From NCBI GenBank assembly GCA_026396835.1, contig JAPLWA010000006.1, positions 1 to 64,000 of the forward strand: DNA of 64,000 nt, read 5' to 3'. A program made the translations under genes and the position numbers. Positions within the stretch are counted from its first letter, which is position 1. Every line of letters starts with the position of its first letter. This document shows, piece by piece, positions 11,907 through 64,000 of the stretch. The notes beneath the pieces are model-generated. The model saw only the letters and a program-made list of their open reading frames with translations. It did not search any database and had not been told where the DNA came from. The stretch is from Candidatus Falkowbacteria bacterium (GTDB lineage Bacteria; Patescibacteriota; Patescibacteriia; Patescibacteriales; Patescibacteriaceae).

Positions 11907-12070
11907 AAACACCGATGCTAAAAAACATTGTCCTGGCGCTGGCCTACTTTCCCGGAGCTTGGACGGCTCGAGTATCATCGGCGCTGAAAGGCTTAACTTC
12001 TGTGTTCGGGATGAGAACAGGTGTGACCCTTTCGCTTGGAGCACCAAGACGATGCTTTCTAACATCGGTG
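11907..12070 (-). terminator. Long-range stem around 5S and end of the rRNA transcript
   Basis: CACCGATG (12063-12070) upstream of 5S pairs with CATCGGTG (11908-11916 region) downstream. On the minus strand the second arm is followed by TTTTTTG. This gives a processing stem enclosing 5S and ends the transcript. Confidence 0.6.
11930..12050 (-). rRNA. rrf: 5S ribosomal RNA
   Basis: About 121 bases. The 5' GTCTTGGTGC pairs with the 3' GCGCCAGGAC; the internal GAACACAGAAGTTAAGCC and the CCGATGATACT region are standard 5S signatures. It follows 23S by about 55 bases in one transcript. Confidence 0.93.
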
Positions 12071-12106
12071 CTTGAGTATAAAAAATAATATTGAGAACAA
12101 GAAAGT

Positions 12107-15664
<3,558 letters not shown>

Positions 15665-60828: not shown

Positions 60829-61896
60829 ATGCCCTTATCTATTGGAATTGTCGGTTTACCTAATGTTGGCAAATCAACTTTATTTACTGCTCTAACTAAA
60901 AAGCAAGCCGAAGCGGCTAACTATCCTTTTTGTACCATCGAACCAAACGTTGGCTTGGTTAAAGTACCTGATAGCCGCCTCGACGCACTGGCTTTGATAT
61001 CACAACCTGAAAAAATAATTCCAACCGTAATTGAATTCGTTGATATTGCCGGACTGGTTAAAGGCGCTTCTCAGGGCGAAGGTTTAGGTAATCAATTTTT
61101 ATCACACATTAGAGAGTGTGATGCAATCTGCGAAGTCGTTAGACAATTTGAAGACACAAATATTATTCACGTCAGTAATAAAATTGATCCTGACTCTGAT
61201 CGTGAAACAATTCACCTTGAATTAGCTTTGGCTGATTTAGCGAGCGTTGATAAAAGATTAAAAAAAGCTATCGGCGATACTAAGGCAGGCGCGACTAAAG
61301 AGGCTTTGCGAATTAAAGATGTTTTACAAAAAATAAAAGACGAACTTGAGAAAGGCGGCGCCGTTCGCAATTTGGAATTTCATGAAGATGATAAGCCCTT
61401 TGTAAAAAGCTTATGTCTAATCACTGCCAAGCCTTTAATGTACGTCTTAAATGTTAATGATAAAGATAATGAAGCGCGACATGGTTGGGATGACGGATCA
61501 GTAATTGCGATTGATGCTAAATTAGAAGCTGAAATTACATCTTTACCAGAAGAAGAGCAAGCTTCTTACATTCAAGAATTAGGTTTGAAAGAAAGTGGTC
61601 TAGATCGTTTAATTAGAGCTGGCTATAAATTGCTTGGCCTAATTACTTTCTTTACAACCGGAAAAGACGAGACTCGCGCTTGGACTGTTCGCGATGGTGC
61701 TTTAGCGCCCGAGGCGGCAGGAGTGATTCACACTGATTTTATTAAAGGGTTCATTAGAGCCGAAGTTATAAACTGGGAAAAATTTGTTGAAGTTGGATCT
61801 GAAGCTGAAGCTCGCTCTAAAGGATTGATGCGTACTGAAGGTAAAGACTATAAGATGCAAGATGGCGATGTCTGTAATTTCCTGGTTAATCGTTAA
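60829..61896 (+). CDS. ychF: Redox-responsive ATPase/GTPase YchF
   Basis: 355 residues. G1 GLPNVGKSTL, G3-like DIAGLVKGAS and QGEGLGNQFL, NKIDPDSD-like motif (with an N-V-S-N-K replacement pattern) and the C-terminal TGS domain (FFTTGKDETRAWTVRDGALAPEAAGVIH...GKDYKMQDGDVCNFLVNR). Universal Obg-related P-loop protein that prefers ATP and is associated with ribosomes and oxidative stress. Standard length. Single gene. Confidence 0.95.
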   Translation: MPLSIGIVGLPNVGKSTLFTALTKKQAEAANYPFCTIEPNVGLVKVPDSRLDALALISQPEKIIPTVIEFVDIAGLVKGASQGEGLGNQFLSHIRECDAICEVVRQFEDTNIIHVSNKIDPDSDRETIHLELALADLASVDKRLKKAIGDTKAGATKEALRIKDVLQKIKDELEKGGAVRNLEFHEDDKPFVKSLCLITAKPLMYVLNVNDKDNEARHGWDDGSVIAIDAKLEAEITSLPEEEQASYIQELGLKESGLDRLIRAGYKLLGLITFFTTGKDETRAWTVRDGALAPEAAGVIHTDFIKGFIRAEVINWEKFVEVGSEAEARSKGLMRTEGKDYKMQDGDVCNFLVNR

Positions 61897-61899
61897 AAT

Positions 61900-62389
61900 T
61901 TGACAGAAATTTAATTTAATATTAAGCTACAAAACAAATAGTTCATTGTTCTCCCTAATAGTGATTAAGAGTCGTCTAGCTAAGGCAAATCCATACCTAT
62001 ACAAATCATTTGTGTAGTTGCCATTAGCTAGATACTCTTGTAAAAGTTGGTGGTAAAAAAATTACCTCTAATGCAATAAGCCCTCGAACTGATACCCTGA
62101 GCTAAGGCTCAGAATATGCACTTTGAGGCAAAAAAAAAGTTAGCGTTGATAAGCGCAGGCTCTTGGTGACTAACCAACACTTTGAATTAATCAAAAGCAC
62201 TTGTCTCGCTAACTTTTAAAAATCGTTCATTTGTTACTTTCAAGAATACTGTGTTCACAGGAACGGATTAAATCTAATAACTAGACTACCGTTGGGGATA
62301 GTCGAAGTTAATAGGTTTAACCTATGAATACAAAAAAGACCTGCGAGCTGCGTTGTAATATGACAAAGCTCAAGGGTCTTTTTTATTTT
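61900..62389 (+). ncRNA. Candidate 455-base structured noncoding RNA
   Basis: Promoter: TTGACA (61900-61905), 17-base spacer, TAAGCT (61923-61928). No ORF follows. From about 61935 to 62389 a series of strong hairpins: 61967-62039 (AAGAGT, TCTAGCTAA, GGCAA and their complements, with CTATACAAA / TTTGTGTAG at the tip), CTGAGC / GCTCAG (62096-62112), AAAAGTTAGCG / CGCTAACTTTT (62134-62215), CGTTC / GAACG (62223-62266), GACTA / TAGTC, ATAGGTTTAACCTAT. It ends in AAAAAGACC / GGTCTTTTTT. I do not recognise a tmRNA, RNase P or SRP signature. Confidence 0.6.
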
Positions 62390-62477
62390 TCTAAAATTGA
62401 CAAAAAATAATTTAAGAATAAATTACCAGTCTATAGTACTTTACAATTAACCCGAGAAAATAAGGAAGGAATATAAA

Positions 62478-62768
62478 ATGCCTAAAAATTTTAAGTTAGT
62501 CGGCGGAACCAAATGTCCTGATTGCAAAGGATCAGGCACAGTGTGGAAAGACCCCCAAAAAGGCTACGTTGAAGATTGGGACATGCCAAAAGAAATCCCT
62601 ACCAAAGTAGATTGTGATACGTGCAATGGCCATGGCAGAATCAATACACTTAATGGTTGTTCCGAATGTAATGCAACAGGAAGAAAAAATGGTTGGATCT
62701 GCAATCATTGCAAAGGTAGCAGCATAAGTCCATTCTTGTTCAACAACAAAAAATATGAGGTTCGCTAA
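62478..62768 (+). CDS. DnaJ-type zinc-finger protein
   Basis: 96 residues with four CxxC pairs in CxxCxGxG-like style: CPDCKGSG, CDTCNGHG, CSECNATG, CNHCKGSS. This is the cysteine-rich (zinc-binding) domain of DnaJ without a J domain. Ribosome site AAGGAAGGAA. Such stand-alone modules occur as thiol-active chaperone-like proteins. Partner unknown. Confidence 0.85.
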   Translation: MPKNFKLVGGTKCPDCKGSGTVWKDPQKGYVEDWDMPKEIPTKVDCDTCNGHGRINTLNGCSECNATGRKNGWICNHCKGSSISPFLFNNKKYEVR

Positions 62769-62902: not shown

Positions 62903-62932
62903 AAAAAAGCCCGCAAGAATGGGGCTTTTTTA
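62903..62932 (+). terminator. Hairpin with T run
   Basis: AAAAAAGCCC / GGGGCTTTTTT stem at 62903-62932, after a stretch (62769-62902) with no gene that I can support beyond a 24-codon ORF running into the stem. Confidence 0.8.
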
Positions 62933-62966
62933 TTTTTCTAAAATAATAGTCATACTAACTAACATA

Positions 62967-63022
62967 ACCCTACCCCCAACCCCTCCCCGCCCGCCGATTC
63001 GGCGGACAGGGAGGGGTGACTT
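62967..63022. repeat. Repeat family A, third copy
   Basis: AACCCTACCCCCAACCCCTC followed by a hairpin (CCCTCCC...CCGCCG / CGGCGG...GGGAGGGG) and GTGACTTAT. Same C-rich/G-rich arms and length as the DUF559 repeats, no gene inside. Confidence 0.65.
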
Positions 63023-63126
63023 ATATTCACGTAAACACGGAGATATTTTTTAAGACTAATAAGTATAGTACTGTAACAGTGTGGCGATTCTTAGAATATT
63101 TAATTTAAAATATAAATTAAATATTT

Positions 63127-63180
63127 ATCCATAGTCTCCCTTCCCTGCGCTATGCGCGGGGAAGGGCTGGGGATAGGGCT
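63127..63180. repeat. Repeat family A, fourth copy, overlapping the methyltransferase end
   Basis: ATCCATAGTCTCCCTTCC, hairpin (CCCTTCCC-TGCGC / GCGCG-GGGAAGGG), then CTGGGGATAGGG. Its ATCCATAGT start equals that of the copy at 21275. The stop codon and last eight codons of 63150-64000 are made by this repeat. Confidence 0.7.
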
Positions 63181-64000
63181 TTTTCCAAAACAATTATTTC
63201 TCTAAAAATAGTTTGGTTATCGCGGCCGTAAATAAATGACTGGCGCGGCGTTAAACCTTCTTTAACTTGTAAATCTTCAGGTAGATAATTTATCACCTTA
63301 AAACTAGCTAAATCTAGCGGCAAATAATTTAAGTCGTGACCCTGTCTAAAAATTGGTAAAGCCAAAACAATTCTTTTGCCTGGTTTTATGACTTTATAAA
63401 AATCTTTAAGACAAGCATTGTATAAAGTAGTTAATTCTTTAACTACGTTTTTTAAATCTAGCTTACCGCGTTGTGGTCCAAGATAAACTTCGGCCACTAT
63501 CGCATCAATGCTATTGGCTTTATATAAAACTGAAATTTCTTTAGCATCTGCTTTCTCTAATTTAGGAAAATTTTTCAAAGCATAGCGCTTCGCAATCCAA
63601 GCGATATTTATTTCTGAGTCAGTTATAGCTTTAGCTGAAATATCTGAGCCTAAAATATTACTATAACCCATTAGCATTGCTTCGGTTAAAATTGTGCCTG
63701 AGCCACAAAATGGATCAACTACTAAATCAGTTTTTTTAACGGCCGCTAAGTTCAACATAATTTGTGCTAGCTTTGGTGGCAACATACCGGAATGATCATC
63801 GCGTGCTGGACGACCATAATCTCTTTGTGACAAATCCTTAAATGGTTGCACGGCTAAGGTTACGCCAACTAAAGTTTTTTTATTAGCTGTTAAAAAAACT
63901 AATTCGCGGCCCGAGTTTGATAATAATTTATTTTGTTCGACTACTACGCTTGATAAAGTTGTTTCGCGACTAGTTACCCAACGACAAGAAACACCTTGAT
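63150..64000 (-). CDS. THUMP/Trm11-like RNA methyltransferase (5' end cut off)
   Basis: The frame is open to the window edge; the first visible in-frame codons read QGVSCRWVTSRET. The family region is QRDYGRPARDDHSGMLPPKLAQIMLNLAAV, then VVDPFCGSGTILTEAMLMGY (motif I) and IVAEVYLGPQRG. DPFCGSGT identifies the Trm11/TrmG10-like N2-guanosine tRNA methyltransferase family, here without the visible THUMP part. It methylates tRNA at G10 or a similar position. The last residues LSPALPRA come from a repeat. Confidence 0.88.
   Translation of the reverse strand, partial: QGVSCRWVTSRETTLSSVVVEQNKLLSNSGRELVFLTANKKTLVGVTLAVQPFKDLSQRDYGRPARDDHSGMLPPKLAQIMLNLAAVKKTDLVVDPFCGSGTILTEAMLMGYSNILGSDISAKAITDSEINIAWIAKRYALKNFPKLEKADAKEISVLYKANSIDAIVAEVYLGPQRGKLDLKNVVKELTTLYNACLKDFYKVIKPGKRIVLALPIFRQGHDLNYLPLDLASFKVINYLPEDLQVKEGLTPRQSFIYGRDNQTIFREIIVLEKALSPALPRA

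Follow-up and report, generated by a model that had tools for sequence, protein, structure and literature searches.

Introduction

The large bacterial RNAs OLE, GOLLD and ROOL are conserved families that build homo-oligomeric three-dimensional assemblies (PMC12286853). The boxA element of rRNA recruits NusB/S10, and putative boxA sites are also located upstream of other genes in diverse bacteria (PMC5725501). Here, we analysed a window of 64,000 nucleotides from the genome of an uncultured Patescibacteria bacterium, which has a size of 1.05 Mb and is divided into 6 contigs. Patescibacteria have tiny genomes and, to our knowledge, their RNA biology is nearly unknown. An original prediction, made from the sequence of the window, had placed a gene-free structured transcript at 61900-62389. 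Judging from sequence, we favour with modest confidence the reading that the plus-strand segment 61928-62389 is a stand-alone, self-terminating, untranslated and fast-evolving non-coding RNA transcription unit.

Results

The proposed untranslated structured transcript is located between two convergent genes. Its upstream neighbour is the gene of the GTPase YchF (60829-61896, plus strand; Pfam YchF-GTPase_C, 9e-37), and no terminator was seen between ychF and the RNA region, either in the sequence or by a motif scan. Among named organisms, the nearest relative that YchF led to is a Candidatus Falkowbacteria MAG. The convergent neighbour is a UPF0020 RNA methyltransferase gene (63150-63998, minus strand; Pfam UPF0020, 8.5e-17). 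The gap between these two genes comprises 581 ORF-free bases, the gene of a 96-residue zinc protein and, at the methyltransferase end, a MITE-like palindromic element. The zinc protein (62478-62768, plus strand) is an orphan of the DnaJ type CXXCXGXG (Pfam DnaJ_CXXCXGXG, 1.4e-6, under the curated cut-off) and is preceded by a second promoter-like site, TTGACA-16-TAAATT, at 62397-62424 on the plus strand, with 10 of 12 consensus matches. Relatives of this protein are absent in 110 other genomes of the order, and a cassette formed by the RNA and the zinc protein was rejected on this ground. The 24-nt tail of the RNA terminator (direct repeat D1, 62374-62397, plus strand) has a 96% identical copy at 62921-62944, 3' of the zinc-protein gene, which suggests that this gene may have been inserted behind the RNA unit as a second cassette running from promoter to terminator. 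The MITE-like element (62965-63180), which has GC-rich imperfect terminal inverted repeats, is found at the 3' end of the methyltransferase gene, whose product seems to have an altered C-terminus as a result (extension ALSPALPRA). Elsewhere in the window, the 23S and 5S rRNA genes (11931-15664) are apart from the 16S gene, which is on contig C1; the 23S gene exceeds the bacterial model by about 600 nt, so that it probably contains an insertion.

A perfect -35 element, TTGACA (61900-61905, plus strand), begins 4 nt past the last sense codon of ychF. The only -10 element at a spacing of 17 nt from it is TAAGCT (61923-61928, plus strand), which is weak, and the pair at 61900-61928 was not listed by a consensus promoter scan. 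The consensus -35 of the original prediction was thus confirmed, while its description of the -10 as plausible was generous, since TAAGCT agrees with the consensus at 3 of 6 positions. At the other end, the predicted U-run terminator is plain in the fold: hairpin 7 (62333-62383) and the U-run that follows it form an intrinsic terminator (62333-62389, plus strand; domain z -4.7). It was missing from the output of a simple terminator scan, probably because of the loop size limit of that scan. The -35 box and the terminator frame the structured part, which consists of seven different hairpins in a row. Sequence features of a self-terminating non-coding unit, namely a promoter, the lack of an ORF and an intrinsic terminator, are all found here, the -10 being weak.

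There is no ORF of more than 32 amino acids inside 61928-62389. Six-frame translations gave nothing in Pfam beyond noise at E=0.06, and tblastn against the sampled loci gave no protein match. A decayed protein gene, the outcome that was to speak against an RNA, was thus not found: no residual similarity was seen in any frame. A cmscan against Rfam 15, from which support had been hoped for, returned no family at the gathering score and, at E<=10, chance matches only, far under threshold; no riboswitch aptamer of Rfam was matched. The original prediction had seen no signature of the large bacterial RNAs in the region, and rightly so: OLE, GOLLD and ROOL are below their curated thresholds, RNase P RNA (RF00010) has no match in it and its genuine copy is located at C3:40049-40429 (235 bits), and tmRNA (RF00023), for which both ARAGORN and cmscan were negative in the region, has its genuine copy at C5:92474-92855 (138 bits).

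The RNA strand of 61928-62389 has a minimum free energy of -153.9 kcal/mol, compared with -94.5 +/- 5.4 for shuffles (z = -10.9). In the minimum free energy fold, the first hairpin of the plus strand (61943-61964, z -2.1) is followed by the longest one, hairpin 2, with about 31 pairs (61966-62040, z -8.2, the strongest domain). These are followed by hairpin 3 (62046-62072, z -2.9), hairpin 4 (62082-62128, z -4.1), the branched hairpin 5 (62135-62217, z -4.8), hairpin 6 (62250-62332, z -5.4) and the terminator hairpin. Of the seven strong hairpins that had been announced, six are each structured beyond shuffles, with sub-domain z values between -2.9 and -8.2, and hairpin 1 reaches only -2.1. 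Ten coding control stretches have z values from +1.4 to -2.1. The 19 other gaps of the window reach -5.6 at most, which makes 61928-62389 its most structured intergenic stretch. A wider background of 83 gaps was taken from about 400 kb of the same genome, sampled as stretches that include the window, and among these gaps the unit ranks third. The structure is thus real and exceptional against coding stretches, window gaps and genome gaps, with the caveat that z is < -6 in 20 of the 83 gaps, because MITE-like palindromes and leader hairpins abound in the genome and a group I intron and tmRNA are also present. The group I intron (L152:517-823, 73 bits) appears to interrupt a tRNA gene.

The sequence of the unit has no relative that we could detect. 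Searches with blastn gave none in its own family, nor in 379 Patescibacteria genomes; phages and plasmids contained no sequence relative, and two exact probes found none in viral contigs. Covariance models, each built from a single sequence (61964-62129 and 62246-62333) and searched against 108 (R1) and 40 (R2) genomes of the order, retrieved only the source, so that the search across Patescibacteria, which was to provide homologues with covarying stems, brought none. Within its own genome, the unit has no repeat copies beyond short chance matches, and a multi-copy element was rejected for lack of a second copy.

Across the order, ychF and the methyltransferase gene are in most genomes convergent, with 40-130 nt between them. 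What is new here is the TTGACA behind ychF in half of the family's genomes: in 5 of 10 (the present genome, G001, G002, G005 and G009) it starts within about 40 nt past the ychF stop, compared with 4 of 83 genomes from the rest of the order (Fisher p 5e-4, shared ancestry ignored). As a background, 6 of 407 gene ends of the present genome have a TTGACA at such a distance. In the four family relatives, TTGACA is followed by 190-460 nt without a convincing gene and by a terminator before the opposite-strand methyltransferase, and the same arrangement of TTGACA, gene-free stretch and terminator is found behind ychF in G051, which belongs to another family of the order. In these five genomes, no substantial gene follows before the methyltransferase, which is on the opposite strand, so that the unit is not its leader; as the units end before it without a gene of their own, they must be non-coding. 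Each of the five has a better fold than its shuffles, and with ours counted as the sixth unit, the RNA strand is superior to its complement in five of the six. In G005 (gap L209), folding beyond chance is limited to the RNA strand, with z -4.7 versus -0.8. The closest relative, G003, has no unit, and neither do G006, G010 and G012; in these genomes the gap between ychF and the methyltransferase is 0-3 nt.

Neither local nor promoter-anchored alignments revealed significant pairwise similarity among the six units, and their homology is therefore positional only. An alignment anchored at the -35 looked significant at first sight, and sequence homology was rejected when the effect disappeared with the anchor behind the -10. 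Weak matches that other genomes gave to the G051 unit were also discarded as chance, being located in coding-like DNA and in a terminator-like stretch.

In many protein genes of the present genome, a TTGACA promoter precedes a boxA-like motif (GATCTTTGAAAA, GTTCATTGAAAA), after which come a single long near-perfect hairpin and the start codon, about 100-130 nt from the -10. Examples of such leaders are L156:1153-1280, L156:3003-3155, L160:6392-6507 (minus strand), L162:12082-12198 (minus strand) and L147:4446-4580. The motif tested, expected close behind the start, was G A/T A/T C T TT A/G A A/C A A. Its core is found behind 8 of 56 promoters of the genome versus 0.27 expected, an enrichment of about 30-fold, and a profile trained on the leaders of this genome gives high scores to the rRNA-leader boxA of the genome itself and of its relatives. 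At roughly the usual distance from the -35, the unit contains a partial boxA-like core, GTTCATTG (61941-61948, plus strand), which is not significant alone (profile p = 0.39-0.75). The idea of a boxA-led unit, attractive since AATAGTTCATTG is common to another leader of the genome, was rejected by the profile statistics. The units downstream of ychF are collectively boxA-positive (Fisher p 0.0009 for the five without ours, shared ancestry ignored), but ours alone has p 0.75, and we therefore do not claim a boxA for it. The gap of G005, where a transcript candidate of about 380 nt with a terminator is convergent to the methyltransferase, has a clear boxA, GTTCTTTTAAAA (p 0.0015).

Discussion

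RNA polymerase would start near 61930, or read through from ychF, and produce an untranslated RNA of about 455 nt, predicted to fold into a series of hairpins that are largely independent of each other. These hairpins would confer stability on the RNA, and the terminator would end transcription near 62384. Most probably, the RNA would be species-restricted and serve in regulation or protein binding rather than in catalysis, since several relatives keep a non-coding unit at this place, with a length (about 190-460 nt) and a sequence that change freely.

The unit and the zinc-protein gene are on the same strand, with the terminator about 90 nt before the gene, so the RNA from 61930 could instead be a long 5' leader whose terminator gates entry into 62478-62768. 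This genome has many long structured leaders; one of them, L158:4562-5038, is an ORF-free stretch of about 470 nt (z -10.9) before a gene for a surface-type protein of 1267 amino acids. The 5' arm of the terminator also has a 10-pair match to about 62153-62163, by eye a possible antiterminator. However, the terminator arm does not pair better with upstream RNA than it does in shuffled sequences (p 0.09), and the partial transcript, from which the 3' arm is left out, forms no strong antiterminator. Moreover, a promoter-like site at 62397 belongs to the zinc-protein gene itself, and the four family relatives and G051 have a unit without this gene. We consider such a leader or attenuator unlikely. 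A structured 3' UTR of ychF, made mainly by read-through and either protecting the message or terminating it before the convergent methyltransferase, agrees with the lack of a terminator behind ychF and with the need of convergent genes for termination. Against it stand the perfect -35 directly behind ychF in several relatives, the 40-130 nt that suffice in most of them, and G003, which does without any unit; this reading appears unlikely.

The stretch could also be non-functional DNA, in which palindromic remnants of mobile elements fold without selection as RNA. MITE-like palindromes are frequent here, as illustrated by the one near 62965-63180, and the complement of 61928-62389 also folds (z = -7.7 versus shuffles), as DNA palindromes would. 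However, apart from short chance matches, no part of the unit recurs in the genome, and the seven different hairpins in a row are framed by promoter and terminator signals; this origin, too, appears unlikely. As a candidate orphan non-coding RNA gene outside all known families, the stand-alone unit that we prefer is well supported. It looks like a fast-changing RNA gene, as it matches no known family and a different non-coding unit is found at the same place in several relatives.

This positional pattern is the most interesting part of the results, and it rests on few genomes that are phylogenetically non-independent. The original prediction is supported in part, and what independent evidence there is for it is indirect, coming from family members that have a unit with promoter and terminator at this place, which in four relatives is non-coding. 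It is conceivable, though doubtful, that the family keeps a non-coding transcription unit between ychF and the convergent methyltransferase that is conserved by position, transcription, folding and termination, with sequence and length turning over between species and possibly with boxA antitermination in some members. If true, a genome of about 1 Mb would have a large untranslated RNA that was apparently re-invented, or very rapidly rewritten, at one spot in relatives. Non-coding RNAs of Patescibacteria would then escape homology-based discovery, and position, structure and transcript data would be needed to find them.

Like OLE, GOLLD and ROOL, the unit at 61928-62389 is predicted to be a non-coding, intergenic and highly structured RNA of hundreds of nucleotides; it differs from them in having no Rfam match or homologue and in being a linear hairpin chain. 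It is similar in size to tmRNA and RNase P RNA, but the genome has separate, complete copies of both. With attenuators and riboswitch leaders it shares a structured RNA with a terminator upstream of a same-strand gene, whereas here there is no known aptamer and no supported antiterminator, and the zinc-protein gene has a separate promoter-like site. It also resembles the boxA-led mRNA and rRNA leaders of its own genome, in which a TTGACA promoter is followed by a hairpin-rich untranslated stretch. However, its boxA core is not significant, and it terminates rather than leading into a gene.
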